DNA of 64,000 nucleotides from Acidobacteriota bacterium (GTDB taxonomy: Bacteria > Acidobacteriota > Thermoanaerobaculia > Gp7-AA8), in the NCBI GenBank assembly GCA_021781455.1, contig JAJXWV010000077.1, positions 47,292 to 111,291 on the forward strand. Direction: 5' to 3'. The notes below the pieces were generated by a model, which was not told where the DNA came from, searched no databases, and worked only from the letters and a program-made list of their open reading frames with translations. Below, one piece after another: positions 25,150 through 63,494 of the stretch; position 1 is the first letter of the stretch, and every line of letters starts with the position of its first letter. The translations under genes and the position numbers were made by a program.

Positions 25150-25226
25150 AGTGCTGAGTCCTGAGTCCTGAGCGCAACGGGCGCCTGCGGGACTCAGGAC
25201 TCAGCACTCAGGACTCAGGACTCGAG
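25150..25226. repeat. Mirrored heptad array (TGAGTCC / GGACTCA)
   Basis: Left units TGAGTCC repeated; right units CTCAGGA, CTCAGCA, CTCAGGA, CTCAGGA. It ends 1 base before ATG 25228 of the secretin gene, which has no clear Shine-Dalgarno apart from a GAG within the array end. Confidence 0.9.
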
Positions 25227-30823: not shown

Positions 30824-30928
30824 AGTCCTGAGTCCTGAGTCCTGAGTCCTGAGAGCCTTCCCCAAGCGAGGCGTGAGCGCTGATCATCAGACTCGCCACT
30901 CAGGACTCAGGACTCAGCACTCAGGACT
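30824..30928. repeat. Mirrored heptad array (TGAGTCC / GGACTCA)
   Basis: Four left units of TCCTGAG and right units CTCAGGA, CTCAGGA, CTCAGCA, CTCAGGA around a 55-base centre. It overlaps the 3' end of the L,D-transpeptidase gene by 8 bases and reaches the promoter of the M16 gene. Confidence 0.9.
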
Positions 30929-45646: not shown

Positions 45647-48600
45647 TCACCACTCCTGGCCGTGTTGTATGGCCATCGGAGCGAGCCGCTGCTCCTGCGA
45701 CCAGACCTGCACTTCGCCTAACGAGACGCTGGACGTCCCGGAAGCCTGGATGCGAATGTAGCGGCCCGCGCGGTTCACGGCAAAATGATATGCGTTGAGC
45801 GCTGTGGCACCGGCCCAGAGCGTCGTCACGCCGCTCTGCGCGATCGTGGCCGCGACGTCGTTAGACGTAAGGGCATCATCCGAGACGAACACATAGAAGC
45901 TCGAGGTCTGACAACAGCCGATCCGGTTCCAGAGGTCGATGAACGAGATCGGCTGGACCGAGCCGAGGTCCACCTGCCACCAGGAGCCGGCGGCTGAGCC
46001 GGTGTCGTTGAACGACGCTCCCCTGTCGCCGCCATCGATGTTCCCGTCGACGGCGCGTTCGGCCGACGCGGTGCCGTTGGTCGCGGACTGCGACGCCGAT
46101 GCGCCGCCTGCGAGATTCTCGGCCTGCGCAGTGGACGGTGCGAAAGCCTGCAGCTCGTCGATCCTCAGGAATTCGGTTTTCGACAACTGCACGCGTAAGA
46201 AACGCGCCGGCCGGTTGATGCGCAGCAGCGTTGCGTTGTTGACATAATTCTCGCGGTAGAAGCTGGAGACTCCGGGCTGCGCGCGGGTAGCGGCGAGATC
46301 AGTCGACAGGAAGGGCTCCTCGGAGGTGAGCAGCCAGAATTGTCCAAGCGCGGTGCCGCGCGCCCAGACGACGACATGCTCGACCGGTTGCACGGCGCCG
46401 AGGTCGAGGGCGAGCCAGGGGTCCTTCTCCGATGCCGTCTGCGCGGTACAGAGGTTTCCGCAGTCGGTCGTGGCGCCGTCGACGACAAGCGACGCCGGGG
46501 TCTGCGCACTATACGTCGATGACATCATGACGTTCTTGCCCGCGGCGAGATTGACCCGATTCAGCAGACCGGTACGATCGAACCAGCCTTCGCCGTCAAA
46601 AAGGTAGAACGACATCGAGGCGATGCGGTGCCCCTCCATCCCGATTGCGACCGCGGGGATCTCGAGACGCACCCAGGCACCCGGCTCCGGCAGTGGACCG
46701 ATGCGCATTTGGTTGACCTGTCCGTCGACTCCGTAGAGGATTGCCGGCTCGCCCCAGTACCCACGGTGCGTTGCGCTGCCGGTCTCGTCGCCGACCTCGA
46801 TCATGATCTGGCGCACGGGTCTGCAGGGGTTGAGCAGAACGTCCGTGACGATGACATCGCCGCTCCGGACCGGGAGCTTCTGGGCGATGTAGTCGAAGGA
46901 CTGGTAATGCTTTCCCGCCTGATCGGGAAGATGGCGGGAGCGCGCACCACCGGCAGCCTGGGTTGTGTCCCACGACCAGCTTCCGAAGCTGGTCGCACCG
47001 GCCGGGAGGTCGTCCTCGATCCACACGCGGTCGCCCGCAATGGTCGCGGGCGGCGGCGCCGTGCCCATCGAGCACGAAGCCTTGCCGATGTGGTCGATCC
47101 ACACCTGGCCTCCTTCGACGCTGATCGAGAGGGCGCGCAGCGACTTGCCGGCCGCGCCGATCGTCGAGGCCGGAATCTCCAGGCGCGTCCAGACTCCGCC
47201 CTGCAGCATGCTGGAGATCCGCCTGCGTGCGCTGGCGTTGTCGATGAGGTCGTCGCCCCACGAAGCGCGGATCTCGGTGCTGCCGTCGGACCAGGCGAAC
47301 AGAATCTGCCGCGGCGGATTGCAGGGATCGACGAGCGCGTAGGCGACGAGTATGTCGCTCGAGCCGATGCTGAACGCCGGCGCGCCGGTGAAGGACCACG
47401 TCCGTGTGCCGGCTGCTGGGGCGAACTGGAGCGACTGCGTTCCGCTGGCTGCGTACGTCGACGCGAATGCGGCTCCGGATGCGCCGGCCGTTGCGCCGGA
47501 GGGCATCGCGTCCTCCACCCAGACCGTGTCGCCCTCCGGAATGGCCGCTGCCGCCGGCAAGGCGAGAGTCTCGCAGGCGGTCACGGTCAGAATGGACGAC
47601 TGCGCGTTGCCGTACATCGCCGAGATCGTGACCGGCGTCGTCAGCGCGAGTTGCGCAGTCGAGATCGAGAACGTGGCCGCAGTCGCGCCGGCAGGCACGA
47701 TGACCGTCGACGGGACGGACGCCCACATCGCATTCGAGGTCGCCAGCGCGATCACTGCTCCGCCCGCCGGCGCCACTGCGGCGAGCGTGACGGTTCCGTT
47801 CGCGGCCGTACCGCCGGCGACGCTCGACGGAGAGAGGGAGAGCGACGCAATCCCGCCGCTCGACGGCACGACCTGCAGCAATGCCGACTTCGACGACGTC
47901 ATGACGGTGGCCGTGATCGTCGCCGCCGCCGGCTCCGCGACGCTCGTCGTGCCGACCGTCACTTCAGCCGACAGGGCACCCGGCGCGATGACGATGGACG
48001 ACGGCACGGTCGCCGCGGGATCGGAGCTCGTCAGCGCGACGGGGCACCCGCCGGTGCGCGCCGGCTGCTCGAGGCGAACCGCGACCATTGACGAAGAGCC
48101 TCCCGTGACGGTGGAGGGAAGCACGGCCATCGAGGCGAGGGCGTTGACGTTCGCAATCGCACCGCTCGCGGTGATGACCTCGGACGTGAACGGCGAGGGA
48201 TGCGAGTCGGTCGCGAAGACGGTGAATCCGTCGCCCGGCAGCCCGTCGACCTGGATGCTGAACGAGCCGTCCGCTGCGGCGTTCGTGCTGTAGGCGACCA
48301 GAGTCCGGATGTTCGTGACCGTGATCTTGAGCGGCGTGTCGACATCGCTGACGGCTCCGGCAGGAGCGACCACGAAATCCCCCGCCGTCGTGCTCCGGAC
48401 CGCTATCTCCGTTTTCAGCGCCGCCGCGAACAACGGCGGTGCTTCGTTGTACGTGAGCGTGGAGGCGCTGTCCTTCTCCACGGCGAGCGCCTCGACGACG
48501 TCGAGCGATGACAGAACGGCGTTCCGAAGCTTGACCGAGTCGAAGCGGATGAAGCCTCGATATGCCTGGCCAGCGACCGCGGTCAGCGGATTGCCGGCCA

Positions 48601-51600
48601 CGTCGAGCGTGATCGTCTTCGCGTCGTTGGCCCTGATCAGCCAGGTCTTCGAGCGATCGCCGGCGAAGAAGAGGCGATGGCCGGCGAGCATGTTCGGCGA
48701 CGGGAATGACGCGGCGCTGTCGGTGATCCGGTCCGGCACACCGCCGGTCGAGGAGTTGACCGACGTGATCGTTCCCATGCCGGCCGCCGGGAGAATCGTC
48801 GCCCGCGGGACCGGAGTAGTGACGTTATCGATGATGAGGTCGCCATTCGCCTGTGAGGCGCCTTTGAGATAGATCGTCCCCACCGCTCCTCGCTGCTTGA
48901 CCGTTCCCGCTGTACCGCCGGCGGCCGTGACGTTGGCCCGCGGCAGCGACATCGCCTCGTAGTCAATGACGATGCGCCCTCCCCCGCCCGCTCCGCCGTT
49001 CTCCGGACCTCCGTCGGCCCTGATCGTGCCGGTGCCGTTGAGCGCCGCAACGTCGATGTGGATGCCGCCGCCCGCCCCTCCGGCGGTTCCCGTCACCTTG
49101 TCGGTGCGTCCCGAGGCGTCGATGCGTCCGTCGAGCGTGAGCGTGCCGGCAACCAGCCGGACGATTCCACCGCCCGGACTGTACGCGTCCGACGACATCG
49201 TCTGGCGGCCCCCGGAGCCGCCCGGCTCGTTGGCGTCGAAGAGCGATCCGAACGGCAACGCGACAACATCCTGCGCGTACATCCACCCTCCGGCGCCGCC
49301 GTGGCTGCCGCCGGCGAGGAAGTAGCTGCCGCCGGTTGTCGTGCCACTCGTCGGATCCTTGTACGTGTAGCCCCAGCCGCTCACCTGACCCGCGAAGCCG
49401 CGGCCACTGACGTCGATGCTGCTGTCGCAGGAGACGTAGATCGCCTGCGCCGCGAGATCGAGGCGCTGGATGGCGGCCGGCGTGGTCGGAGGATGGGTGA
49501 TCATGGCTCCGTCGAGTGCCGCGACGAATGTGAATGAGTGATGGCCGGCGATCGTCAGGACGACGCCGGAGCCGTTCGCAAAGATCGCATGGCCGTCGTA
49601 CTGCGCGTCGGCCGCAGCGATGGTGGTGCTCGCCGAGAACATCGCGCCGTTGTAGAGCGTGAGCGTGCTGACGATGTCGGCGGCGTTCCCGGCCACGCTC
49701 GTGGCGACCGCGCGGATCGGCACGGTCGTGCCATCCGACGCCGACGGAACCGTGCAGGTCGCCTCGTAGTTGTCCGCCACGCCGGAAACCGCCGTCGCGG
49801 CAATGACGGTCGCCGGATCGCCGACGAAGAACTCGACTTTCGCGACGCCGTTCGCGACGGTGTTGCCCTTCGCGTAGACGCGCAGCTTCGCGCTCCCGCC
49901 GGCAGGTACAATCGCGCCGGGCGTGCCGCACGTCCAGGCCAGAGCGGGCGCGTTCGGGTCGATCAGCGGCCGCACCTCGATCGTCACTGCCTCCGAAATC
50001 TTCTGATTGCCCTCGTAATCGATGGCAGCAAACGTGAGCGTCTTCGAGACGAGATCGGTCCCGTCGACATTCGGCACCGGAACGGTGGTCGTGAAGACGT
50101 CCGGACGTCCGGACGCCGGCGCGAGGTCGTAGCTCTTCCCATCGATCGTCGCCCAGGCCCGCGCCACCGCGACTTCGGCATCGGTCACGGTCGCTTCGAC
50201 GGCGATCGTGTTGCCGGCTCCTTCGTCGAAGATCTGGCCGGCGGCGGGTTTCGAGATTGCGATCGATGGCGGATTCGGATCTTTCAGGATGCTGACGCTT
50301 CCCGTCCTCGTCACGGCGGCGCGGTTCGGGAACCCGTCCGAGACCGCAAGCGTGAGCTGCACGGTTGTGCCTGACGGAGTGGCCGCCGGAATCGCAACGG
50401 CGAACTGCTGCGAAAGCTCGTTCGCCGCCGGTTCGAGCACGGGCGGTGTCGACGTGACAGTGCCGGCGGTAGAGGTGAGCGTCATCGATTTGACCTCGAT
50501 GTCGTCGGTCGCCTTGGCTGCGGCGACGATCGAATGCCCGGCATACATCGAGGCTGCGGGAACGACGTCGAACTGAGCGATCGAGGGCGGCGTATTCGCA
50601 ACGACGGTGAATGCGACCGGCGTCGTCTCGACGGTTCGGCCGGAGCGCGTCACGGCGCGCAGTCTCATCGTGGCGCCGCCGGGGAGCGCCGTATCGGGGA
50701 TGGAGCTCGTCAGCTGCTTCGACGTCAGCGCATTCGGGTGATTGCCGAACGATTCGACCGCGTCCGCCGTCGCCGCGGAGAGAATCATGCGGACGTGGTC
50801 GATGCCGTCGGCCGCCGCGGCGTCGAAGGTCGCGGTCAGGGTCGAGGCCTGGATGAGATTCGGCCCGACAGGCGTGGTCGCGGTGACATTCAACGCCGGC
50901 TGATCCGATGGCCGCAGGAGCAGTGCCGTCGGGTCGACCGTGACTTTCGCCGGATCGGCGACCGTGTACGGAGCGTCGAACCGCGCCAGCGCCCGCGGAC
51001 CGATGGAGATCGAATCGAAAGTGAGGCCGTCGGCGAGCGTCGTACCGCGTGTGGCGTGGCTCGATTGCGGATACCGGGCATCGAACGACGAGACGATCAG
51101 CTCGCCGAACGCTTCGCCCGCACGCCGCAGGAACACGGTTCCCGCGCCTCCGTCGGTAAAGGTCGCTCCTTCCGATGCCCCACCGTTCCGCCCGCCTCGG
51201 GCCTGCAGCAGAAGGGCGAGATCGTCGTGATCGAAGCGGTCGCCGACGATGACCGAGACTCGGCCTCCGCCGCCGCCGCGCGATTCGTTGTCGGCGCCGT
51301 CGTCGTCGCCCCCGCTGGCGCTGATCGATGCCGCGGCACCGGCAATGAGCGCATGGGCGCTGACCAGCAGGCTTCCACCCGACCCCGCAGCTCCGCGATT
51401 GACACCGCTCTGTCCATCCGCGCGAATCGCGCCGGCAATCGCGAACCGCGACAGCTCTGAGGCACCGCTTCCGCCGCGCAAGGCGATGGCCCCACCGCCC
51501 GACCCGCCCGCTGTGCAGCACGCCGCGCTGCCTCCTCCGCCCGATCCGAGGTCGACCGGCTCGGTGATCGACCCGTACGGCGCGTTCGTGGCGTCGGCCG

Positions 51601-54600
51601 GCGATTCGCCGCCGCTCCCGCCGTACGAAGCGCTGGCCGCGGCCCCTCCTGTGGTCGTCCCGCCGGCGGTCTGGCCGCGCGGTGACTCGTTGCGGCCGCC
51701 GCCGTCGTCGCGCGTCGCCCAGCCGCCGAGGTAGCCGCGGGCGGTGAGGTCGATCGAGGAGTCGGCGTCGACGAACAGGCGATCGGCAATGGTCAGATCG
51801 AGTTTCGTCTGCGTCGGATTGCTGACGACCGCGCCGTCGATCAGCATCAGGTTCTTCAGCGCGAGCGGCACGTAGACGAACAGCCGCGCGGCGGGTCCGC
51901 GCAGGAGGAACGACTTGTTCGCGTAGTCCGCAGCGTTCGACGAGGTGATGGCGAGATCGTTCGAGATCACGGACAGATCCGGCGTGAGCGGATCGACGGT
52001 GATGGGAAGCTCGACGAGATGGGCATCGACGCCGTCGCTGATCGTGGCGGTGATGACGAACGGCGCATTGTCCGCCGGCATGGTCAGGGCCACCTTCGAC
52101 TCGAAGACGTCGGTCGTGCCGCTCTTCGGCGCGGTGAGCGTCACCGCGGCGGCCATGGCGCTGCTGCTGAAGACGACCTGCGTGATGTTGCCTCTGGCGC
52201 GGACGCGCAGGGTCGTGAGCCAGCCGCTTTGTCCCGCCGGGAGTGCCGCTCCGTCGACCGGCGTGATCCAGGAGGCGTTCGGAATGGCCGGATCGTCGAC
52301 GCGGTCGTAGATCACGTCGGTCGATGCGTCCGCAGCGTTGTCCCGGTAGTCGAAAACGCGCACGGCGATGTGGACACGTGTGTCTGCGTTCCGCGCCGGC
52401 ACGGTGATGCTCGTGCGGAACGTCCAGATGCCAGAGAGCGCGTCGAATGTCGACCCGGCGGCCCCGGCGAGGATCGTGACGGGAATGCCGCTCCCGATCG
52501 TGATTACGGCGCGTGCGACGCCGGTGTCGGCATCCATGGCACGCAGCTCGACCGTCAGCGTCTGCCCGTTCCGGTAATGCGTTTCCGCCTTCGGCAGCAG
52601 CGAGGCGACCGCGGGCGCATTCGAATCGGCGAGGACTTCGATCGCAGCGGTCACGGTGGCGGCCTTGTTCGCCGAATCGGTGGCCGTCGCCGTGAGCGTC
52701 GCCGTGCCCTCTTTCAAAGCGTTGGGAACGATGAAGGTGAATGTCGCGGACGGCCAGACGTCGGCGACCGTCGTGCGCGTGATCCTCGTCGAGCCGAGGT
52801 CGATCGCATAGGCCGAGCCATCGCGGTGGGTCCCGGTGAGCCTGAGCGCCACCGTGACCGAGAGCCCTTCGTCACTGAACAAAACCCGCGCGGTGACACT
52901 CCTCTGCGGATAAGCGGATGCGACATCGGTCGTGAGCTCGAGGTCCTTCGGCGGGTCGTTAGGCGCGACGTTCCATGTCCGCGCGGCCGGCGAGGCGCTC
53001 GTGTTGCCCGATAGATCGGTGGCGCTCGCCTTCAGCGTGAATAGAGCCGGCGTTCCGCTCGCCGGTGGCGCCACGAACGTGTAGGCGTATGGCGAGACCC
53101 TGGACCGCGTGATGAACGCACCCGCTTCGTCGAGCCAGTCGACGTACGCGGTGTCGGTTGAGGCCACGAGCGTTCCTTCATCCGTGATCGTCGGGGTCAC
53201 GCTGTAGGCGACGCCGGCAATCAGCGGGTAGCCGTCGGGCACAGGTGAGGAGATCGCGACGACCGGCTTCTTGAGATCGAATGAGAAGTAGTCGAACGTG
53301 CGCGCCGCGGCCTGCACGTTCGGCGGCGATTGCGTGTCTCTCGTCCCGGCGATGGTCAGCCGGTAGTACGCAGACTCGGCGATTACGGATCGCGGCGCAA
53401 CGACCAGCGTCGCAGCATCCACAGCATCGCGGTACGAGGTCACCTCGACGACCGCGATGGGCAATCCCTTGTACGACGCGAGCCGTTCGAGGGTCAGCAC
53501 GCCGCCATTGCCCGTTGCGAACGACGTGGCATCGACGGCCTTGTTGAACTTCACGCGGAAGGTCGTCTGCTGCGGCAGCGGCAGCTCGACTGGCGGCGCA
53601 ATCGAGGTGATCACCGGCTCGGTGTAGTTGGTGGTCGTGAACGTCGAGCCGACCGTGGAAGGCATGGCGTTGGCGCTGCCGTCCTGAATGCCGGCAGCGA
53701 CGACGACGCGGTAGATGACGTTGCTCTTCAGCCGGTATTTCTGTCCTGCAGCGATTTGCGCTGCGGTCGGATCGGGGGCGGTGATCCGCACGAGCAGCGC
53801 TCCATCGGCGGCCCCTTCAGCCGAGATCGCTGTCGAAGGGACTGGCTGGCCGTCGTCGGTGGAGATGAGCTGAAAGTAATTCGCGTTCAGGAACGCCGCC
53901 GCGACCGATTCGCTCAGCGTCACGGCCACGGTGCTGTTCGGGGCAACGTTGTTGGCGTTGTTCGGCGGATCGATCGACACGACGCGCGGCGGCGTGGCGT
54001 CGAGGCGTACGCGGCCGAGGTCGAGGACGCCGCTGCTGCCGTCGGGAATCGATCGGCTGATCGACGCGCCGGTCGTCGTGTCATCCGGCGCGAGGCACTT
54101 CAACGTCACGAAGGTGTCGCCGATCGGAATGGCGTCGAAGCGCCACGAGCCGTTTGCGTCGGTCCGCGTCTCGAGCTGCAGAACGGAGGTGAGCAGCCGG
54201 CTGGTCGCTCTCAGAATGACGCGCGTCCCGGCCGATGGGCCGCCACCCTCCGCGTCGACCCCGCCGGTGATCGACGCGTTGGCGCCGAGGTTGAGCGTGA
54301 ACACGAGCGGAACGGCGTGGCTCCCCAGCGTCCCACTCGCCGACGCGGCTACGCTTCCCTTCGCCGCGCGAACGGAGATCGTGCCGAGAGCGAACCCGTC
54401 GAACGACACCAATCCGGCGGCACCTGTGTTCAGCGTGGCCGAGCGGTTGCTGCCGACGATGGTCACCGTTGCGTCCGCGACCGGCGCGTTTGAGGCATCG
54501 CGAACCGCGACCTGCACCGTGCCGAACGTCGGAAACACGAGGTTGACCGCAGCCTCGAGACTGTTCGCCGGGAAGGCTCCTCCGGCCGCAGCAACACGTC

Positions 54601-57600
54601 CTTCGCCACCCAGCTCCTTGGCCTCGACGGTCCAGCCTCGCTTCGCGAACAGCTTCCGGAACGTCAGGTCGTTCCCCTGCAGCTGGCGCAGATAGGCGCC
54701 GCCCTGGGTCACTTTGATGTCGGTCAGCGGCGCGAGCGCTCCCGCATGACCGGCATCGTCCGGAAGAAACACCTTCACGTTGAGCGACGCCATTCGCTCG
54801 AGCTCCAGCGCGAGCCCGCTTCGCTCGGGATACAGCTTGCTGATGAACGAGCTCTGCCTGTCGCTGCCCCTCCCGCTTTCGATCTCGAACGCGTCGACCG
54901 TGAAGTTCCCCTCGGGAACTCCGTCGAAAACGAACGCGCCATTCGCGTCCGTCGATGCGCGCGTCGTCAGCGACATCTGCCTCAGCGTCACAGGCGCACC
55001 CTTCACAGGTGCCTCGGCCGGCACACCTTCCGGATCGCGCACGACGCCGCTCACCTTCCCGCGAATCTCCAGCGTGACGGTGACGTTCGAAGGGACATCG
55101 CGGACCACGGCGAAGTCGGCGCCCGTTCCGGTGGCGCCGAGGATCTTCGAGTACGCGCGCACCGAATAAGTCCCGGCAGCGGGCACCTCGTCGAACAGGG
55201 TGAGTCCGTTGCCGTCCGTGGTCGTGAAATCGAAACCGCTCCCGTTGCGGATCAGCGACACCTCGGCGTTCGGCACACGGGCGAAGGCGTTCTGCGGATC
55301 GACGACGGCCACGCTGACCGAGCCGGTGCCCGATCCGCCGATCGCAACCACGAGATTCTGCTGGGATGTGTCGCCCTCGAAGCGGATCTCGCCCTGCAGA
55401 TCGCCGCGAAGCTCCTGGACATCGGGCGAAACGGCCGTGATGCGGAACCCGCCGGTGAAGACATTTCCAACGGCGAAGTGTCCCGTCTTGTCGGCGAGAA
55501 GCGGATCGGCCGGCGAGCCGAAGGTGCGGTAAGGCCACGCCAGCTCGCGCAGCCAGTATTTCGCCAGCGGCACCGGGATGCCCCCGCCATCGACAACGCG
55601 CCCTTCGACCGATGATTGCTCGCGGAGGACGACCGCGAGATTTTCGACGAGGCCGCCGCTCTGCGGAGTCCTCGAATCAACGAAGCCTGTTCGGTAGATT
55701 CCGTCCTGCGAGGCTTCGGCGATGACGCGGAAGGATTGATTCGCTGCGACTCCGTCGAAGTGGAATGCGCCGGCGGCATCCGTTGTGACCGGCAGGATGT
55801 TTGCCGCCGCCGCTTCGAGCCGCACCGACGCTCCGGCCACAGGCGTCTGCCCGTCGAAGTTGAACAGGCGCCCGCGTACCTCCGTCATCGCGCTCAGGCG
55901 CAGCGTCACGGTCTGCGAATCGCCGTCGTACCCGAGCCTCGTCGAGGCACTGGCGTACCCGGCCGGGTGATCGATTGTTGCGGCGACGATGTCCTTGCCC
56001 GCTGGAATGCGGAGAGCGGTGACATAGCCTGTCGCCGGATCAGGCTCCAGCCGGTGCTCGGTCATCACGGCGCTCAGCTCGCTCTCGTCCCAGCTCATGT
56101 AGGTCAGGTTCACGGGGCCGGTCGCCGGGGCGTAGCACGGCGGAGTGCCGCATGGTTGCGCCACTTCGATCTTCGCGACCACCGTTCCCTGCCCCGGAAG
56201 ATGGAGATCGGCGACGCCGATCTGGCCGTCGAAATCGACGCGCACCGAGCCGCGGGCGCTCTGCTCGCCGTAGGGCGACTTAGCGTCCCGCGGCACGGCC
56301 CAGACGTCGTATCCCTGCGGAACGCTGACCTTCGCCAGCTCGTAGACGCCCGGTGTGACCTCGTCGAAATCGACGGGCGGGTAATACGCAGCGAGCACGC
56401 GATATCCGGTGACGGGCTCGCCGCGCGCGCCCGTCAGCCGGACGCGCATCGTCGCCGTGCCCGCCGGCTCTGACGAACGGAGACGAACGCTGAATGGATT
56501 CGATCCGGGAACCAGCGTCGGAAGCACGAACGTTCCGCGGCGGCCGGTGGAGGGATCGAACACCTGCATCGACTTCACCGCGCCGAATGACGGCGGCACC
56601 GCGGGGTAGACGTACTTGCCGTCGGCACCGGCCGTCGTCGGGGCCAGTCCGACGATCGTGAGGACGGCGCCCGGGACCGGCTGGTCCTTCGAAAGGTCAT
56701 TCATCGCCACGGGATCGTCGCGGGTGATCGAGCCCTCCAGCGTCACGGTTGCCGTCGCCTCCGTCTTCGTCGGCACGTGCAGCACGATGACCTGGTCGAC
56801 GACCGCGTCCGGTTTGACGTCGAGATCGATGGCCGCGCTCTCGCTGGTCAGGTTGAACTCGGAGGCGAGGATGGAGATGAATCCCGCGGGAACTCGCGAG
56901 AACTCGGCGCGGCCACCGGCGTCGGTCGTTGCGTCGACAACGCCGTAGCCGCGGCTCCAGACGCCGACGTGTGCGTTCGGCACGAGCGACTTCGCGGGAT
57001 CAGTTTCGTCCGATCGGCGTACCGTCACGCGCACCGACGCCGTGCCCGGAAAATCGCTCAGCTGAATGACGAGGTCCTGCGTGACCGTTTCGCCCGCGAT
57101 GCGGATCTGGTTCGTCGCGTAGGCCGTCCGCCCGGCCGCATCGGTGACGATGAACGTGAGCGGACCGACCGGCAGATCGGAGATCGAGTAGCGCCCGCTC
57201 ACGTCCGTTGTCCCGCGGCGGAACTCCTGGAACACCGGACTGCTGACCGTCACGCTCGTGTTGGCGACGACCGCACCGTCGCTCGTCCTGACTGTCCCGG
57301 TCGCGGTGCCGCGGCCGAGGAACATCAGGTTGACCGTCTGCACCTGGCCCGGGAGTCGGATCGTCCCTCGCGCCTCGGTGTACTTCCCCTCGGCCGACGC
57401 GCTCAGGAGATAGTTGCCGGTTTGCCCGGCGTCGATGTCGCGCGGGATGAACTCGAAGAGGAACGCCCCCTGGTCGGTGGTCGTGTCGTACTGGTAACTC
57501 GTTCCGCTGATGAGCTGGACCGGAGTCGAGGGCACGACGCTGTTGTCTGCGCGGAGAAGGCGGCCGAAGAGAATGCCACCCGGGCGCTTGTTGTCGACGC

Positions 57601-60439
57601 GCGGGACGATTCCGCTGAACGTCGAAGCGGTGCCGGTCACCGCGTCGGTGATCGCATCGGCGGCAATGGCGTACGAGGCGTTCGTCGACAGTGCCTTGTC
57701 GAAACTGATGTTGACGATCGAGCCGTCGTCCTGGAGCGACGCGCCGGGGATGAACGTCTGCGAGGCGGAGTTGCGGCGCGTGACCTGGTAGGCGATCGAA
57801 TCGATCTTCGTCGTCAGGCCGAACGCGTCGCGGAGCTTCGCCGCATCCGACACCGTGACCGGCCGGTTGAAGAGCAGCGACACGACGTGGCCGGCATCGT
57901 CGAGGTGAAGGTCCTGTGCGGCCGCGATCGCGCGCAGCGGCGTCTGCGCGACGGGATTCACGAGCGGAGCCGCGGTGCCGCCGCTGACGACCAGCGTCCG
58001 GCTGCCGCGTGCGACCGTCACCGCGACCGGCGATCCGGGCTTCGCTCCCGTCACCTCGAAGGTGGACCGCAGGAATGCGCCGGCGGCCGTATCCGGCCAG
58101 ACGAGATCGATCGTGAAGCGATCCGATTGTGGAACGACCGAGAGCTGGAGATCTTCTTTCCAGCGGCCGACGAGCGCCATCTCCCCGCTCTCGGTCGAGG
58201 AGGCCAGCCTCGTCAGCTCGGCGAACGGCATCCCGCGGATCCAGCCGCCCGGCGCCTCGGCAGGGACGTCGAGGCGCGTTGCCGTGGTGGCACTGGTCAG
58301 CGACAACGCCAGCGGGCGTTCGATACCGCTGACGGGCGGCGCGTGCACAACCGCAAGGAAGTAGTGCGAGCGATGGCAGGTCGCCGCCGCAAAATCGTCG
58401 ACGAATTGCGAGATCGACTTGCCGGACGGGAGACCGTTGACCTCGACCTGCCGCGCCATCGCCGCCGCCGCCTTCCGCCCGTTCTCCTCGGAACGCCGCA
58501 GCTGGTCCCATTCGGCGAGCTCCGGCGTCAGGCGGTCGATCCGCTCCGCGTTGTCGAGCAAGTCGAGCGCGAGGTTGAAGAGCGGATCGCGGTTCTCCGC
58601 GGGATCGGCGGCATTGACGTCCTGGCGCGAGACGAAGATCCGCTGCCCCGCGCGCGTGAGGTCCTGAGCGCGGCGGAAGACGTCGGTGCGGATCACGCGT
58701 GGAAACTTCGCGGTGGCCGTGGTCAGCGGCGCGGTCGCCAGGCTGTAGCCGAGCCCGAGGAGAGAGAGGTTGGCGTCGACGAACGAGGAATCGAGATAGC
58801 GGGCGTACCACGGCATCACGAGCGTCGCCGGAGAAAGCGGGATGCCGGAGGCGCTGACGCCCATGGTCAGCTTCACTTCGATCGCTGCGGCCGCGTCCGA
58901 CGCCGCGCCTGCCGCCGCGAAGATGTGGCCGTCGATCCCGGCCTTCAGCTTGTACGGCAGCGACTTCATCTCGCCCGGCGCGAGGGTCAGCTCCGCGACT
59001 GGGGTTCCCTCGGTTCGACAGACGCCTGATGTATAGCCCTGCCCGCACTGCGCGATTTCCGCGGTGTCGATCCGCAGCGATCTCGACTGCGGGCTGAGGT
59101 TCGTAATGAACGCGTATGCGGTGTACGGCTCATCTTTTCTTATGACGTCGGGGTGCGAAAACGCAATGTGGAAGCGCGGGTCCGACACGACGATCGACGA
59201 GCTGGCCTTGCCGTGCAGGCGGACGTCGGCCTGGTTCGGCGCCTTGTATGTGGCGCGGATGTCGACATCGATGGTGTGTGTGCCCGCTTTCAATGCTTCG
59301 AGCGTCCAGTCGCCCGTCCCTTGCGCGCCGGCGACCAGGAACGTCGTGCCGGTGGTCTTGTCGACGATCGGAAGCGGCTGGCCGATGCCGATGGCGGGCG
59401 TCGCCTTCGCTACCCGCAGCGTGAGAGGGGCGTCGAGCGTCGCGGAGATCGAGTCGAGCCGGATCTCGCTGTCAGGCGGAGCGACATTGGAGATCTGGAG
59501 GACCACGAGGAAGAAATCGTGCAAGACCCCGAATCCTGTGGGGATGACGATCGCCGCCGGGATCGAGGGCTTCTTCGGCGTCTGATCCTTCTCTGCGAAC
59601 GGCGCAGATGGCGTGAAAGGCACGTCTTCCGGCTCGTCGGCGAGAAACACCGGATAGGTGCTGGGAGGCTGGAATCGCGGCGGGATGTTGTTCGAGGTCA
59701 GCACCGGCAGCGGGTAGGCGTTTGGCGCGGGCGGGACGATGATCTCGTGCGTCGTCCTGGAGACGATTACGTCGTACGGAATGGTGACGCTCTGTCCGGG
59801 GCCGAGGGAGAGCACGATCGAGTAGGACCAGACCTCGTAGTTGCGCGGATCGACGGTGATGCCGCGGGCGCGCAATTCGTCGGCGGAGAGCTGGCGCACC
59901 GTCACCTGCGTCGACATCACTTCGACGACGACGATCGTCGCGAACGACGGCACCGCCTGCTGCACGAACTGCCCGGACGACGTGAGCAGGCGGATGTTCT
60001 GGAGCGCGTACTCGCCCTTTTCGTGCAACCCGGGGAGCGCAAATTTCTGTCCCGGCTGGGTGAAGAGGGCGATCGGCGATTCGATCCCGGGGCCTGTCAG
60101 GTCGCCGGCGACGGTTAGATCAGGGACAGGCAGTGCCTGCTCATTTTGTTTTCCACCAAAGATCGTCTGGATGTACGCGCCGATGTCGACGCCGGTCGTC
60201 ACCTGTTTCGTGTCGACCTCGAGCGAGATCCCCGCGATCGCGAGATCCGCGCGGGCGAGCTCGCTGGCGCGGGCAGAGGCTGCCAGAGCGATTGCGAGAA
60301 GGATCGCCAGGATCGCCCACGGCCTGGTGTGGCGCAGACATTCCTGTCTGCGCCCCTCCTGTCCGGCGCAGACAGAAATGTCTGTGCCACACGCGACTCC
60401 TCCCCTCCCGTCGAGACGGATAGCGGCCGTGAATCGCAC
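45647..60439 (-). CDS. Giant surface protein of about 4930 residues, Ig-like / CarboxypepD-reg / discoidin
   Basis: One uninterrupted gene of 14.8 kb. From GTG 60439 (AGGAG 9 bases upstream) the product has an unusual 40-residue N-terminal stretch, then a signal segment PWAILAILLAIALAASARA. Coding order by nucleotides: a unique N-terminal region to about 57.6 kb; a run of carboxypeptidase-regulatory/Cna-B-like modules (57.6-54.1 kb) with TDVSGRYSISDLP-type signatures; an SbsA-like Ig unit (TPPRVVSIDPPNNANNVAPN) near 54.0 kb; many Ig/cadherin-like modules (53.6-50.0 kb); two glycine-rich modules (near 51.7-51.1 and 49.4-48.9 kb); a pair of about 160-residue units with VWVEDAMPSGAT and VWIEDDLPAGAT; and two C-terminal discoidin (F5/8 C) domains from about 46.56 kb to the end. 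Likely exported and carbohydrate-binding; no anchor or protease domain is seen. Confidence 0.85.
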   Translation of the reverse strand: MRFTAAIRLDGRGGVACGTDISVCAGQEGRRQECLRHTRPWAILAILLAIALAASARASELARADLAIAGISLEVDTKQVTTGVDIGAYIQTIFGGKQNEQALPVPDLTVAGDLTGPGIESPIALFTQPGQKFALPGLHEKGEYALQNIRLLTSSGQFVQQAVPSFATIVVVEVMSTQVTVRQLSADELRARGITVDPRNYEVWSYSIVLSLGPGQSVTIPYDVIVSRTTHEIIVPPAPNAYPLPVLTSNNIPPRFQPPSTYPVFLADEPEDVPFTPSAPFAEKDQTPKKPSIPAAIVIPTGFGVLHDFFLVVLQISNVAPPDSEIRLDSISATLDAPLTLRVAKATPAIGIGQPLPIVDKTTGTTFLVAGAQGTGDWTLEALKAGTHTIDVDIRATYKAPNQADVRLHGKASSSIVVSDPRFHIAFSHPDVIRKDEPYTAYAFITNLSPQSRSLRIDTAEIAQCGQGYTSGVCRTEGTPVAELTLAPGEMKSLPYKLKAGIDGHIFAAAGAASDAAAAIEVKLTMGVSASGIPLSPATLVMPWYARYLDSSFVDANLSLLGLGYSLATAPLTTATAKFPRVIRTDVFRRAQDLTRAGQRIFVSRQDVNAADPAENRDPLFNLALDLLDNAERIDRLTPELAEWDQLRRSEENGRKAAAAMARQVEVNGLPSGKSISQFVDDFAAATCHRSHYFLAVVHAPPVSGIERPLALSLTSATTATRLDVPAEAPGGWIRGMPFAELTRLASSTESGEMALVGRWKEDLQLSVVPQSDRFTIDLVWPDTAAGAFLRSTFEVTGAKPGSPVAVTVARGSRTLVVSGGTAAPLVNPVAQTPLRAIAAAQDLHLDDAGHVVSLLFNRPVTVSDAAKLRDAFGLTTKIDSIAYQVTRRNSASQTFIPGASLQDDGSIVNISFDKALSTNASYAIAADAITDAVTGTASTFSGIVPRVDNKRPGGILFGRLLRADNSVVPSTPVQLISGTSYQYDTTTDQGAFLFEFIPRDIDAGQTGNYLLSASAEGKYTEARGTIRLPGQVQTVNLMFLGRGTATGTVRTSDGAVVANTSVTVSSPVFQEFRRGTTDVSGRYSISDLPVGPLTFIVTDAAGRTAYATNQIRIAGETVTQDLVIQLSDFPGTASVRVTVRRSDETDPAKSLVPNAHVGVWSRGYGVVDATTDAGGRAEFSRVPAGFISILASEFNLTSESAAIDLDVKPDAVVDQVIVLHVPTKTEATATVTLEGSITRDDPVAMNDLSKDQPVPGAVLTIVGLAPTTAGADGKYVYPAVPPSFGAVKSMQVFDPSTGRRGTFVLPTLVPGSNPFSVRLRSSEPAGTATMRVRLTGARGEPVTGYRVLAAYYPPVDFDEVTPGVYELAKVSVPQGYDVWAVPRDAKSPYGEQSARGSVRVDFDGQIGVADLHLPGQGTVVAKIEVAQPCGTPPCYAPATGPVNLTYMSWDESELSAVMTEHRLEPDPATGYVTALRIPAGKDIVAATIDHPAGYASASTRLGYDGDSQTVTLRLSAMTEVRGRLFNFDGQTPVAGASVRLEAAAANILPVTTDAAGAFHFDGVAANQSFRVIAEASQDGIYRTGFVDSRTPQSGGLVENLAVVLREQSSVEGRVVDGGGIPVPLAKYWLRELAWPYRTFGSPADPLLADKTGHFAVGNVFTGGFRITAVSPDVQELRGDLQGEIRFEGDTSQQNLVVAIGGSGTGSVSVAVVDPQNAFARVPNAEVSLIRNGSGFDFTTTDGNGLTLFDEVPAAGTYSVRAYSKILGATGTGADFAVVRDVPSNVTVTLEIRGKVSGVVRDPEGVPAEAPVKGAPVTLRQMSLTTRASTDANGAFVFDGVPEGNFTVDAFEIESGRGSDRQSSFISKLYPERSGLALELERMASLNVKVFLPDDAGHAGALAPLTDIKVTQGGAYLRQLQGNDLTFRKLFAKRGWTVEAKELGGEGRVAAAGGAFPANSLEAAVNLVFPTFGTVQVAVRDASNAPVADATVTIVGSNRSATLNTGAAGLVSFDGFALGTISVRAAKGSVAASASGTLGSHAVPLVFTLNLGANASITGGVDAEGGGPSAGTRVILRATSRLLTSVLQLETRTDANGSWRFDAIPIGDTFVTLKCLAPDDTTTGASISRSIPDGSSGVLDLGRVRLDATPPRVVSIDPPNNANNVAPNSTVAVTLSESVAAAFLNANYFQLISTDDGQPVPSTAISAEGAADGALLVRITAPDPTAAQIAAGQKYRLKSNVIYRVVVAAGIQDGSANAMPSTVGSTFTTTNYTEPVITSIAPPVELPLPQQTTFRVKFNKAVDATSFATGNGGVLTLERLASYKGLPIAVVEVTSYRDAVDAATLVVAPRSVIAESAYYRLTIAGTRDTQSPPNVQAAARTFDYFSFDLKKPVVAISSPVPDGYPLIAGVAYSVTPTITDEGTLVASTDTAYVDWLDEAGAFITRSRVSPYAYTFVAPPASGTPALFTLKASATDLSGNTSASPAARTWNVAPNDPPKDLELTTDVASAYPQRSVTARVLFSDEGLSVTVALRLTGTHRDGSAYAIDLGSTRITRTTVADVWPSATFTFIVPNALKEGTATLTATATDSANKAATVTAAIEVLADSNAPAVASLLPKAETHYRNGQTLTVELRAMDADTGVARAVITIGSGIPVTILAGAAGSTFDALSGIWTFRTSITVPARNADTRVHIAVRVFDYRDNAADASTDVIYDRVDDPAIPNASWITPVDGAALPAGQSGWLTTLRVRARGNITQVVFSSSAMAAAVTLTAPKSGTTDVFESKVALTMPADNAPFVITATISDGVDAHLVELPITVDPLTPDLSVISNDLAITSSNAADYANKSFLLRGPAARLFVYVPLALKNLMLIDGAVVSNPTQTKLDLTIADRLFVDADSSIDLTARGYLGGWATRDDGGGRNESPRGQTAGGTTTGGAAASASYGGSGGESPADATNAPYGSITEPVDLGSGGGGSAACCTAGGSGGGAIALRGGSGASELSRFAIAGAIRADGQSGVNRGAAGSGGSLLVSAHALIAGAAASISASGGDDDGADNESRGGGGGRVSVIVGDRFDHDDLALLLQARGGRNGGASEGATFTDGGAGTVFLRRAGEAFGELIVSSFDARYPQSSHATRGTTLADGLTFDSISIGPRALARFDAPYTVADPAKVTVDPTALLLRPSDQPALNVTATTPVGPNLIQASTLTATFDAAAADGIDHVRMILSAATADAVESFGNHPNALTSKQLTSSIPDTALPGGATMRLRAVTRSGRTVETTPVAFTVVANTPPSIAQFDVVPAASMYAGHSIVAAAKATDDIEVKSMTLTSTAGTVTSTPPVLEPAANELSQQFAVAIPAATPSGTTVQLTLAVSDGFPNRAAVTRTGSVSILKDPNPPSIAISKPAAGQIFDEGAGNTIAVEATVTDAEVAVARAWATIDGKSYDLAPASGRPDVFTTTVPVPNVDGTDLVSKTLTFAAIDYEGNQKISEAVTIEVRPLIDPNAPALAWTCGTPGAIVPAGGSAKLRVYAKGNTVANGVAKVEFFVGDPATVIAATAVSGVADNYEATCTVPSASDGTTVPIRAVATSVAGNAADIVSTLTLYNGAMFSASTTIAAADAQYDGHAIFANGSGVVLTIAGHHSFTFVAALDGAMITHPPTTPAAIQRLDLAAQAIYVSCDSSIDVSGRGFAGQVSGWGYTYKDPTSGTTTGGSYFLAGGSHGGAGGWMYAQDVVALPFGSLFDANEPGGSGGRQTMSSDAYSPGGGIVRLVAGTLTLDGRIDASGRTDKVTGTAGGAGGGIHIDVAALNGTGTIRADGGPENGGAGGGGRIVIDYEAMSLPRANVTAAGGTAGTVKQRGAVGTIYLKGASQANGDLIIDNVTTPVPRATILPAAGMGTITSVNSSTGGVPDRITDSAASFPSPNMLAGHRLFFAGDRSKTWLIRANDAKTITLDVAGNPLTAVAGQAYRGFIRFDSVKLRNAVLSSLDVVEALAVEKDSASTLTYNEAPPLFAAALKTEIAVRSTTAGDFVVAPAGAVSDVDTPLKITVTNIRTLVAYSTNAAADGSFSIQVDGLPGDGFTVFATDSHPSPFTSEVITASGAIANVNALASMAVLPSTVTGGSSSMVAVRLEQPARTGGCPVALTSSDPAATVPSSIVIAPGALSAEVTVGTTSVAEPAAATITATVMTSSKSALLQVVPSSGGIASLSLSPSSVAGGTAANGTVTLAAVAPAGGAVIALATSNAMWASVPSTVIVPAGATAATFSISTAQLALTTPVTISAMYGNAQSSILTVTACETLALPAAAAIPEGDTVWVEDAMPSGATAGASGAAFASTYAASGTQSLQFAPAAGTRTWSFTGAPAFSIGSSDILVAYALVDPCNPPRQILFAWSDGSTEIRASWGDDLIDNASARRRISSMLQGGVWTRLEIPASTIGAAGKSLRALSISVEGGQVWIDHIGKASCSMGTAPPPATIAGDRVWIEDDLPAGATSFGSWSWDTTQAAGGARSRHLPDQAGKHYQSFDYIAQKLPVRSGDVIVTDVLLNPCRPVRQIMIEVGDETGSATHRGYWGEPAILYGVDGQVNQMRIGPLPEPGAWVRLEIPAVAIGMEGHRIASMSFYLFDGEGWFDRTGLLNRVNLAAGKNVMMSSTYSAQTPASLVVDGATTDCGNLCTAQTASEKDPWLALDLGAVQPVEHVVVWARGTALGQFWLLTSEEPFLSTDLAATRAQPGVSSFYRENYVNNATLLRINRPARFLRVQLSKTEFLRIDELQAFAPSTAQAENLAGGASASQSATNGTASAERAVDGNIDGGDRGASFNDTGSAAGSWWQVDLGSVQPISFIDLWNRIGCCQTSSFYVFVSDDALTSNDVAATIAQSGVTTLWAGATALNAYHFAVNRAGRYIRIQASGTSSVSLGEVQVWSQEQRLAPMAIQHGQEW
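60331..60392. repeat. Perfect-type palindromic element within the 5' end of the giant gene
   Basis: GTGTGGCGCAGACATTCCTG, TCTGCGCC, a short loop CCTCCTGTCC, then GGCGCAGACA and GAAATGTCTGTGCCACAC: two arms of about 26 bases, each itself palindromic. It sits between the GTG start and the signal-peptide codons, in frame, adding about 20 residues including three cysteines. Confidence 0.8.
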
Positions 60440-60589
60440 GAGAACCGGCTCCTGCTCAGTGTCAGTGGGAATTGCTGAAGTAATTCGAAAATAAAAGGAA
60501 ACCGTATCGGTGCCGTCAGGGCGAGACAACGGCGATGCGTGCCAGATCGCGCCGATCCGTGCCACGGCCGAGGCAGCCGTGATTGCAGT

Positions 60590-60680
60590 CACCCGGGACT
60601 GCGGGCGTCTCGCCCGCCTGCGGCCGGGCATCCCGTCCGACCGCTGCGAGACGAAGTCGCCGGGCTGGAACGCCCGCAGT
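60590..60680. repeat. GC palindromes between the giant gene and tyrA
   Basis: GGGACTGCGGGCGTCTCGCC near 60595, CGCAGTCC near 60674 and internal GGCGG/CGCC pairs form an imperfect mirrored structure. It resembles the palindromes at 37252 and 61438. Confidence 0.6.
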
Positions 60681-61438: not shown

Positions 61439-61627
61439 GAGTGCGGGCGTCCCGCCCGCACCGGCGGGACGTCTCGTCCCGCCGTCCAGGACACCAACAG
61501 CGCCGGGCGGGACGCCCGGCGCGTGCGGGCGGGACGCCCGCACCGGCGGGACGTCTCGTCCCGCCGTCCAGGACACCAACAGCGCCGGGCGGGACGTCCG
61601 GCGCGTGCGGGCGGGACGCCCGCACTC
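61438..61627. repeat. Two-copy 82-bp tandem repeat of GC palindromes
   Basis: Each unit has GTGCGGGCGT/CCCGCCCGCAC-type and GGCGGGACGTCTCGTCCCGCC hairpins plus the linker GTCCAGGACACCAACAGCG. The copies start about 82 bases apart (CACCGGCGGG at 61459 and 61541) and differ at few positions. It fills the space between the convergent tyrA and aroF stops. Confidence 0.9.
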
Positions 61628-61632
61628 CAGCG

Positions 61633-62649
61633 TTAGGCCAGCGTCCTTCGCACCGCCGGGACGATGATCCGCAGCTCGTCCATCAGCTCCACGAACTGCT
61701 CGGGGTAGAGCGACTGCGGGCCGTCGCAGAGCGCCTTCTCGGGCTCGATGTGAACCTCCACCAATACGCCGTCCGCTCCTGCGGCCACGCTGGCGCGCGT
61801 CAGCGGCATGACCTTGTCGCGGCGGCCCGTGGCGTGCGACGGGTCGACGATGATCGGCAGGTGCGAGAGCTTCTGCACCACCGGGATCGCCGAGATGTCG
61901 AGCGTGTTGCGCGTGTAGGTCTCGAACGTGCGGATGCCGCGCTCGCAGAGGATGATCTCGTAGTTGCCGCCGGCCATGATGTACTCGGCCGCCAGCAGCC
62001 ACTCCTGGATCGTGGCCGACATCCCGCGCTTGAGCAGCACCGGCTTCCGCACCTGCCCCACCGCGGACAGCAGGTTGAAGTTCTGCATGTTGCGCGCGCC
62101 GATCTGCAGCACGTCCACGTACTCCAGCGCCGATTCGATCTGGCTGATCTCCATGACCTCGGAGATCGTGGTCATGCCGAACTCCTTGCCCGCGGCGCGG
62201 AGCATCTTCAGCCCCTCGATGCCGAGGCCCTGGAACGAGTAGGGCGAGGTGCGCGGCTTGTAGGCGCCGCCGCGCAGGACCTTGGCGCCGGCCTTGGCCA
62301 CGGCGCGCGCGGTGCCGAAGAGCTGCTTCTCGTTCTCGATGGTGCAGGGGCCGGCCATGACCACGACGTCACGGCCTCCGACCTTGCAGACGCCGAGGTC
62401 CACGACGGTGCGCTCGCGCTTGAAGGTGTGGCTGGTCAGCTTGAAAGGCTCGCTGACACGGACGACTTCCTGCACGCCATCGAGCAGCTCGAACTCGCGG
62501 GTGTCGAGGGAGGCCACGTCGCCGACTACGCCGAGAATCGTGTGGTCGCTTCCGGTGGAGCGGTGGACATCGAATCCCCGGCTGATGAGCTTGCCGACGA
62601 CGTTCTCGATCTTTTCCTGGTCGATGCTCTTTTCCATCACGATGATCAT
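61633..62649 (-). CDS. aroF: 3-deoxy-7-phosphoheptulonate synthase, type I-beta
   Basis: The first enzyme of the shikimate pathway (338 residues). An N-terminal ACT/ferredoxin-like regulatory domain (MIIVMEKSIDQEKIENVVGKL, residues 1-70) allows feedback inhibition. Catalytic barrel motifs: VVMAGPCTIENEKQLFG with the metal Cys, KVLRGGAYKPRTSPYSFQG, VLQIGARNMQNF, PVLLKRGMSATIQEW, IVDPSHATGRRDKV with the metal His, and GADGVLVEVHIEPEKALCDG. GGAG lies 8 bases before ATG. It is downstream of chorismate mutase in one transcript, separated by a heptad array. Confidence 0.95.
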   Translation of the reverse strand: MIIVMEKSIDQEKIENVVGKLISRGFDVHRSTGSDHTILGVVGDVASLDTREFELLDGVQEVVRVSEPFKLTSHTFKRERTVVDLGVCKVGGRDVVVMAGPCTIENEKQLFGTARAVAKAGAKVLRGGAYKPRTSPYSFQGLGIEGLKMLRAAGKEFGMTTISEVMEISQIESALEYVDVLQIGARNMQNFNLLSAVGQVRKPVLLKRGMSATIQEWLLAAEYIMAGGNYEIILCERGIRTFETYTRNTLDISAIPVVQKLSHLPIIVDPSHATGRRDKVMPLTRASVAAGADGVLVEVHIEPEKALCDGPQSLYPEQFVELMDELRIIVPAVRRTLA

Positions 62650-62662
62650 TGGTTCTCCAGTC

Positions 62663-62758
62663 CTATCCTGAGTCCTGAGTCCTGAGTGTTAGCTTCTGAG
62701 TCCGTTCCTGAACGGGGTCAATCCCACTCAGGACTCAGCGCTCAGGACTCAGGACTCC
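62663..62758. repeat. Mirrored heptad array (TGAGTCC / GGACTCA) inside the aroQ-aroF operon
   Basis: Left units TCCTGAG repeated three times; right units CTCAGGA, CTCAGCG, CTCAGGA, CTCAGGA. The stop codon of the chorismate mutase gene is formed inside the array, and the array lies just before the aroF ribosome-binding site. Confidence 0.9.
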
Positions 62759-63063
62759 GAGGCTTCGCGCTCGACGCGGCGCGATTCGTCGATGATGCGT
62801 TCGAAGAGGCGGCGGACGGCGGCGGCGGACAGAGGGCCGTCGGACCACCGCTCCACGTTTTCCAGCACGTGCTTCTCGCGTTCGGGTGAATAGATGGGCA
62901 GCTGCAGCACGCCCTTCAGCTCGCCGATCTCGATGGCGTACCTGGCGCGCTGGTTCAGGAGCCTGACCAGCACCTCGTCCACGCGATCGATGGCCTCACG
63001 GAGGCGCACCAGCTCGGCGGGAGCGGCGGTTGTCTGCTGCAGATGACTTTCACTTTCGGCCAT
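62749..63063 (-). CDS. aroQ: Chorismate mutase, AroQ type
   Basis: A 104-residue helical protein. ELVRLREAIDRVDEVLVRLLNQRARYAIEIGELKG with the catalytic Arg and Lys, then SPEREKHVLENVERW and VRRLFERIIDESRRVE, is the AroQ pattern. Converts chorismate to prephenate for Phe and Tyr. ATG 63063 lies 3 bases after the U-run of a terminator hairpin; the 3' arm AGAGG is the only Shine-Dalgarno-like element, so the hairpin could block both transcription and ribosome entry. Expression is probably controlled by the upstream leader peptide. Confidence 0.93.
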   Translation of the reverse strand: MAESESHLQQTTAAPAELVRLREAIDRVDEVLVRLLNQRARYAIEIGELKGVLQLPIYSPEREKHVLENVERWSDGPLSAAAVRRLFERIIDESRRVEREASES

Positions 63064-63066
63064 AAC

Positions 63067-63094
63067 AAAAAACCTCTTCCCCGTGAGGAAGAAG
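63067..63094 (-). terminator. Attenuator terminator before aroQ
   Basis: On the minus strand CTTCTTCC pairs with GGAAGAGG (one G-U pair) around TCACGG, followed by TTTTTTG. It ends 3 bases before the aroQ start codon. The 5' arm can alternatively pair with GGAAGGGG transcribed from 63121-63128. Confidence 0.85.
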
Positions 63095-63117
63095 TCTGAA
63101 ATGTGCCGAACCGTTTC

Positions 63118-63139
63118 GCGCCCCTTCCGTGCGGGGCGC
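63118..63139 (-). promoter_or_regulatory. Alternative hairpin in the aroQ leader (antiterminator switch)
   Basis: GCGCCCC/GGGGCGC form a perfect 7-bp stem. The first arm can also pair with GGGGCG at 63150-63155, just after the leader peptide stop. Its central GGAAGGGG can pair with the terminator arm CTTCTTCC. The set gives mutually exclusive structures as in classical attenuators. Confidence 0.65.
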
Positions 63140-63159
63140 AGTCGAACGTCGCCCCTGAG

Positions 63160-63210
63160 CTAGCTGTAATAGCCGTAAAAGCTGCGGTAGGCGCGGGCGT
63201 TCGGGGTCAT
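63160..63210 (-). CDS. Tyr/Phe-rich leader peptide (16 residues) of the aroQ-aroF operon
   Basis: Reads MTPNARAYRSFYGYYS then TAG. Four Tyr and one Phe in 16 residues, with FYGYY next to the stop. It is followed by three competing stems and a terminator before aroQ. This is the usual layout of a ribosome-mediated amino-acid attenuator. Start is 9 bases after the -10 box, so it is nearly leaderless; no Shine-Dalgarno is seen. Model: when Tyr-tRNA is scarce the ribosome stalls on the Tyr codons, leaving GGGGCG after the stop free, which leads to the antiterminator; when Tyr is plentiful the ribosome reaches the stop and covers it, so the terminator forms. Confidence 0.8.
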   Translation of the reverse strand: MTPNARAYRSFYGYYS

Positions 63211-63219
63211 GAGGCGGTC

Positions 63220-63249
63220 AGGGTAGACGGGGGGCAAGGATCACGTCAA
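63220..63249 (-). promoter_or_regulatory. Promoter of the aroQ-aroF operon
   Basis: On the minus strand -35 TTGACG (63249-63244) and -10 TACCCT (63225-63220) are separated by 18 bases. It is the best sigma-70-type promoter in the window and drives the leader peptide. Confidence 0.75.
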
Positions 63250-63394: not shown

Positions 63395-63494
63395 TTGAGT
63401 GCTGAGTACTGAGTGCTGAGTACTGAGTACTGAGTACTGAGTGCTGAGTACTGAGTCGTGTTGGCGCGCACTCAGTACTCAGCACTCAGCACTT
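63395..63494. repeat. Mirrored heptad array (TGAGTAC/TGAGTGC type)
   Basis: The longest left arm in the window: nine or so units of CTGAGTA or CTGAGTG, then a short spacer and right units CTCAGTA, CTCAGCA, CTCAGCA. It is located upstream of the aroQ promoter, with no gene within it. Confidence 0.9.

Follow-up and report, generated by a model that had tools for sequence, protein, structure and literature searches.

Architecture of the aroQ-aroF leader region

The window, that is, the whole 64,000-nucleotide stretch of DNA that was analysed, carries the genes for a chorismate mutase (aroQ) and a DAHP synthase (aroF), preceded by a compact region in which a preliminary description had recognised a promoter, a leader peptide and a chain of alternative stems. 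Direct reading of the sequence positions confirmed these features, all on the minus strand as described:

63249-63244 (-): -35 box, TTGACG; TTGAC is the -35 sequence in the 27 of 36 elements that have a promoter-like pair
between the boxes (-): spacer of 18 nt
63225-63220 (-): -10 box, TACCCT, 9 nt 5' of the leader ATG
63160-63210 (-): leader ORF MTPNARAYRSFYGYYS, 16 residues; ATG at 63210, stop codon TAG at 63162-63160
63155-63150 (-): segment A, GGGGCG; predicted from folding and a duplex test to be the partner of B while a ribosome is stalled upstream
63139-63133 (-): segment B, GCGCCCC; alternative partners A and C
63128-63118 (-): segment C, GGAAGGGGCGC; alternative partners B (hairpin) and D (antiterminator)
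63094-63087 (-): segment D, CTTCTTCC; alternative partners C (antiterminator) and E (terminator)
63080-63073 (-): segment E, GGAAGAGG; 3' arm of the terminator-like hairpin, with two-sided changes in D:E
63072-63067 (-): six T, tail of the terminator-like hairpin, followed by three more bases and the aroQ ATG at 63063
62749-63063 (-): aroQ, chorismate mutase; best model TIGR01807, 64.4 bits, below its cut-off of 69.55
61633-62649 (-): aroF, DAHP synthase; NF006421, 489.9 bits (cut-off 335); B. subtilis type by TIGR01361

The Tyr and Phe codons of the leader lie mostly in its second half, and no Shine-Dalgarno match precedes it. The GAGG at 63076-63073, which forms part of segment E and lies 9 nt 5' of the aroQ ATG, is the sole Shine-Dalgarno-like sequence in front of that gene. 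A site scan of the window detected a terminator-like site between the leader ORF and aroQ, where termination is predicted, and the folding of positions 63064-63218 beats 199 of 200 dinucleotide shuffles (z -3.1). A consensus promoter scan of the window gave no sites at the aroQ leader; the promoter is called on the strength of its recurrence in relatives, a promoter-like pair being present in 10 of 12 aroQ elements. The Rfam attenuator leader families and the T-box gave no covariance-model match at this position (63xxx) of the window or in seven related loci.

Several other features of the window were noted. Arrays of 7-base units (TGAGTAC, ACTCAGG, TGAGTCC and others) occupy positions 63396-63456, 62726-62757, 8622-8713, 25190-25223 and 30824-30928, such that one stands upstream of the putative attenuator promoter and one between aroQ and aroF; judged by eye, four relatives (L003, L004, L005 and L007) also have 7-base arrays, often of other sequence, upstream of the same promoter. 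An 82-base repeat (2.3 copies, 61441-61625) separates aroF from a convergent tyrA-like gene, and an open frame of 4994 codons (45647-60631, minus strand) appears by eye to encode a giant, repeat-rich exported protein. A tRNA-Sec gene at 9155-9252 (minus strand; Rfam 71.1 bits, also found by ARAGORN) implies that the genome likely makes selenoproteins.

Conservation of the element at aroQ loci

The family to which the window belongs comprises 18 genomes, the nearest named relatives of which are Acidobacteriota of the Thermoanaerobaculia/"gp7". AroQ was matched in 14 of the 18 genomes, at 15 loci, and at 12 of these 15 the leader ORF, segments A to E and the terminator lie just 5' of aroQ. The element is absent at the other three (L011, L013 and L031), and the L013 contig has only 109 nt upstream of the gene. 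The copy at L031 (G001:C133) is a second aroQ, without attenuator, on the same contig as the first and some 5.5 kb away from it. Model R1, built from aroQ elements of the family as described below, was run on 68 loci of more distant aroQ relatives from other lineages and found no element there (one match, E 0.5).

The leaders of the 12 aroQ elements are 12-16 residues long and contain 4 to 6 Tyr and Phe residues each. Conservation of these codons in relatives had been proposed as a check on the attenuator, and they are indeed kept in all 12. If the leader acts in attenuation, the amino acid at which the ribosome stalls could be Phe instead of Tyr. In Corynebacterium glutamicum, an attenuator with a Phe-Tyr-Phe leader precedes the DAHP synthase gene aroF (PMC4046766, PMC11802643), and the account of this aroR-aroF system in PMC11802643 has it answering Phe, not Tyr, limitation. 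At least one Phe is present in 11 of the 12 aroQ leaders, and L002 has more Phe than Tyr. Set against this, Tyr dominates (45 Tyr vs 18 Phe over the 12 leaders) and L008 has six Tyr and no Phe, which makes it rather improbable that Phe is the effective signal and that the Tyr codons matter little.

Ten of the 12 aroQ elements have a promoter-like pair (L004 and L005 are without a clear -35 box), as do 27 of all 36 elements when those at other operons, described below, are included; four of the nine that lack it are outside the order. In 25 of the 27 the -10 box ends 6-12 nt before the leader start, and in two the distance is 19 nt. The sequences AGGA, GGAG and GAGG were sought 4-16 nt before the leader start and were found in none of the 36. 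Together, the promoter spacing and the lack of a Shine-Dalgarno match predict that translation of the leader is leaderless or nearly so. Formation of a leader peptide without a ribosome-binding site is reported for ilvBNC, to judge from the title of a reference in PMC4046766. At L006, L008, L010 and L018 the attenuator promoter lies, by eye, within the 3' end of trpA, so that trp transcripts would traverse the attenuator too.

Alternative pairing and predicted dependence on ribosome position

Whole-element alignments made with MAFFT put segment D one base out of register, and model R1 was built from the six of the 12 aroQ sequences that were in register; the later alignments were made by R1, and the pair counts that follow lean toward its structure. 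In the model-based alignment of 28 elements, pairing in B:C and D:E holds for 98.2% of 446 cells. Two-sided changes occur at 6 of their 16 pairs, five of them in D:E, and 0 of 500 shuffles scored as high, in keeping with the compensatory stem changes that the preliminary description had suggested looking for. The antiterminator helix C:D is likewise kept (96.9% of 195 cells paired); it shows no two-sided changes and its covariation is not above shuffles. Duplex tests covered 31 of the 36 elements, five without a standard B being omitted, and found A:B better than shuffles (p<=0.05) in 21 and C:D in 8. A C:D helix of other sequence can be drawn by eye in more distant families (loci L132, L156 and L160), where folding supports dependence on ribosome position for L132, supports it weakly for L156 and does not for L160. 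In the window's genome the B:C stem pattern taken by itself lacks specificity, occurring at 25 sites compared with 19 for a control.

The effect of ribosome position was modelled by equilibrium folding of the RNA as it stands before E is made, with a ribosome set either on the last sensor codons or on the stop codon. For the window, a ribosome on the Tyr codons gives the antiterminator a probability of 0.93, and one on the stop codon a probability of 0.18. Over all 36 elements, the mean sensor-minus-stop difference is 0.30, as against 0.035 when the stretch from the stop codon to D is shuffled, and values above 0.05 are reached in 26; because the elements are related, p-values of the folding test are not independent. 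The remaining ten show no gain above 0.05. Among these ten are the aroQ element L009, in which the difference is reversed (-0.27), and L146, the His element found in the genome of the window, in which there is none (-0.01). Without a ribosome the antiterminator state has a probability of 0.26 in the window, which is thus predicted to be mostly off, and of 0.01 to 1.00 in the others. The Trp element L185 (G011:C36) has neither A nor B, and its segment C adjoins the stop codon; with values of 1.00 (sensor) and 0.05 (stop), it is, in the folding model, a natural deletion that leaves the logic of the switch intact.

These observations suggest the following course of events. Transcription would start about 0-5 nt 5' of the leader ATG. 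When Tyr is sufficient, the ribosome would reach the stop codon and cover A, B:C and D:E would form, and transcription would end. When Tyr is short, the ribosome would stall on the Tyr run, A:B and C:D would form, and transcription would continue into aroQ-aroF. Release of E would also free GAGG, the apparent Shine-Dalgarno sequence of aroQ, which the same hairpin may mask. In the his attenuator, a segment that follows the leader stop codon is covered by the stopped ribosome. Segment A, covered by a ribosome halted at UAG, would correspond to it, and the position of the first pairing region after the stop codon, which had been thought an unusual order, is therefore an ordinary one that resembles the his-type chain.

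Ten of the 12 aroQ elements have a single Shine-Dalgarno-like purine stretch (GAGG or GGGG) in front of the gene, inside E and 7-10 nt from the ATG, from which it appears that the terminator would also hide the Shine-Dalgarno sequence. Control could then be mainly translational, D:E masking the aroQ ribosome-binding site and termination contributing little. The aroQ elements keep a T-run directly behind the stem, however, of which a purely translational switch has no need; moreover, L003 and L004 retain both hairpin and T-run despite a GGAG further down. Mainly translational control is thus considered unlikely, and transcription attenuation is the preferred reading. The sequence marks of such an attenuator are present here: a short leader ORF with many codons for the downstream amino acid in all 12 aroQ elements, a predicted intrinsic terminator between leader ORF and first gene and, in silico, a mutually exclusive antiterminator that depends on ribosome position in 26 of 36 elements and not in ten. 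The earlier suggestion that the alternative pairings amount to attenuation is in this way upheld by the codons, by B:C and D:E and by the folding, and is left without support from two-sided changes at C:D.

Elements with His or Trp runs at other operons

Model R1, although derived from aroQ elements alone, finds the same segments B, C, D and E elsewhere in the window's family, with His runs before hisZ in 10 genomes and with Trp runs before a bifunctional aroD-aroE gene (aroDE) in 8. After inspection, the family elements number 12 at aroQ, 10 at hisZ, 8 at aroDE and one composite (in G006). HMM scoring of the first genes identified hisZ in 10 of 10 cases, with hisZ models as best match yet with scores below the model cut-offs, and aroDE in seven of the eight, with a fragment as the remaining case. 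All three kinds, Tyr/Phe (aroQ), His (hisZ) and Trp (aroDE), are present in the genome of the window, where the His leader MNLRTSARHHHRHHHLV stands before hisZ-hisG-hisD and the Trp leader MNASLRLWWWPSSE before aroDE-trpE.

Of 148 genomes of the class over which R1 was run, 41 gave a match at E <= 1. A second model, R2, was built from 28 elements and matched 47 of the 148 class genomes at E <= 0.1 and 25 of 396 genomes of the phylum at E <= 0.001; many of these matches consist of the terminator part alone, and the account here covers inspected loci, leaving out others such as G286:C193 and G453:C70. Leaders with Trp or His runs in front of aroDE or hisZ occur in G018, from the same order as the window, in G061, G069, G094, G096, G098, G053, G143 and G145 from the class, and in G346 and G209 from the phylum. 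Candidates that lacked either a leader ORF with a codon run or a matching gene were dropped, namely L159 (of 20 loci), L186, L189, L190 and L191 (of 8), L133-L137 (of L132-L137), L206 and L208-L212 (of L203-L212), 9 of the 11 loci L213-L223, and both L229 and L230.

Leader codons and operon content

The correspondence between leader and operon was tested by comparing the last 12 residues of 39 leaders with the genes that follow, the first and second genes being HMM-scored, under 100,000 permutations. His is present in the leaders of all 20 operons that contain his genes or hisS and in 2 of the 19 others, Trp in all 12 with pathway genes and in 9 of the 27 others, and Tyr or Phe in 14 of 14 vs 9 of 25; the counts for the others treat a pathway as absent if no gene of it was seen, and nine of the ten family hisZ operons were read only to hisZ, so that a trp gene beyond could be missed. 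For each of His, Trp and Tyr/Phe, 0 of 100,000 permutations gave as strong an association, a result favoured by the choice, where several short ORFs were possible, of the one that ends just 5' of segment A and holds the run. An earlier version with 36 leaders, for which some genes were called by eye, gave the same result. The 39 leave out G004 (aroDE, a 146-residue fragment without match), G143 (a hisZ fragment without match), and G145 and G209, where the next gene had no score.

Some leaders combine codon runs, in merged operons in particular:

G006: MTGKASRNSYYGWWHYRS (YYGWWHY run), before aroDE-hisS-trpE..trpD-trpC-trpF-trpB-trpA-aroQ-aroF
G013: SHWWWHGRR, before aroDE-hisS-trpE
G098: GWWHGVHHHGDF, before aroDE..hisG..trpE
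G094: WLRWHHHGLS, before hisZ..trpE
G061: GGWWHGVHHHGR, before aroDE-hisZ-hisG-hisD

G006 has no separate element at aroQ, and a single one stands at the front of the merged operon. It was predicted beforehand that genomes of another family with trpA-aroQ and without an aroQ element would have Tyr codons in the front leader. The prediction held in G044, where VKVSASSCWYWYWSDTR (CWYWYW), with Trp and Tyr and without His, precedes aroDE-trpE..trpA-aroQ; the T tail of the terminator-like hairpin is weaker there, and the aroQ of this genome had no match at 1e-20 in the family scan and was assigned by a separate search. The blind test consists of G044 alone, since in G029, the second such genome, the contig starts inside trpE (by eye).

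Seen by itself, the window shows only a terminator-like site with an ORF upstream, much as would be expected of a constitutive intrinsic terminator beside an unrelated small-protein gene. Such an arrangement would not lead the codon run to vary with the downstream pathway while the switch stays constant, and this explanation is accordingly regarded as highly improbable. Collectively, the comparative and folding results point, with a probability of roughly 0.88, to the 186 bases before aroQ-aroF being a ribosome-mediated attenuator that would be on when charged tRNA-Tyr (and likely tRNA-Phe) is scarce, and a member of a family in which the leader codons match the products of the operon.

One origin or several

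Within the order, the GCGCCCC/GGGGCGC stem is nearly invariant across the aroQ, His and Trp kinds (28 elements), whereas elements of more distant families have other sequences at the B:C stem, and this favours copying within the order. Leader heads, the parts that precede the codon runs, were compared between kinds in three ways, and in none did their mean similarity exceed that of shuffles; their use as proof of common descent is unsupported overall. The exception is a single identity of 14 nt shared by an aroQ and a Trp leader head, which none of 100 shuffles attained. The unremarkable likeness of the leader heads is what would be expected had the His, Trp and Tyr/Phe elements arisen separately and converged on the same stems. 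This is a possibility to be taken seriously, if a less probable one, given that the near-invariance of the stem across three kinds, the different stems of distant families and the 14-nt identity all speak against it. Copying of the attenuator module among operons is, on the sequence comparisons, likely. The fuller scenario is put forward with modest confidence: one module would have been copied within Acidobacteriota genomes with its codon run swapped, giving Tyr/Phe, His and Trp versions at three operons and multi-input versions (Tyr+Trp+His, Trp+His, Trp+Tyr) in merged operons, so that the leader would read as a list of the products.

Relation to known attenuators and significance

The mechanism of attenuation itself is known and classical. 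The his and pheA attenuators of E. coli and Salmonella consist of a chain of alternative helices read by ribosome position, together with a run of cognate codons, and the Acidobacteriota elements are predicted to follow the same helix-chain logic, with the same kind of codon run. We know of no stem sequence common to attenuators of different pathways in E. coli or Salmonella, whereas here one switch is common to three pathways. Attenuators of different operons have, to our knowledge, been treated as separate inventions.

The closest described system is aroR-aroF of C. glutamicum (Neshat et al., 2014, as related in PMC11802643, PMC4046766 and PMC3890552), which likewise has a leader with aromatic codons before a DAHP synthase gene and in which stalling is proposed to allow read-through; it differs in belonging to another phylum and in its reported response to Phe, not Tyr, and the likeness drawn here is one of description. 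The preliminary description knew of no attenuator for a chorismate mutase/DAHP synthase pair in a lineage like this one, a view that needs qualifying to the extent that an aroF attenuator exists in another phylum (PMC4046766, PMC11802643). In Sinorhizobium meliloti, the trpL transcript begins at the leader ATG and is thus leaderless, and it is subject to transcription attenuation, but it is described as responding to Trp only and belongs to the Alphaproteobacteria (PMC7298713). Leader peptides with His runs before his genes were found by comparison in Firmicutes, although in the accounts cited they have no module in common with Trp or Tyr/Phe elements (PMC9413887, PMC2965389). The open-licence PMC literature yielded no description of a codon-swapped attenuator family in Acidobacteriota.

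With these elements the Acidobacteriota gain a concrete set of predicted attenuators, in which the content of an operon can be predicted from a peptide of some 15 residues and vice versa, as in the G044 test. A fixed switch and layout, combined with a codon run that varies with the pathway, would amount to a natural codon-swap experiment for attenuation of the Yanofsky type.
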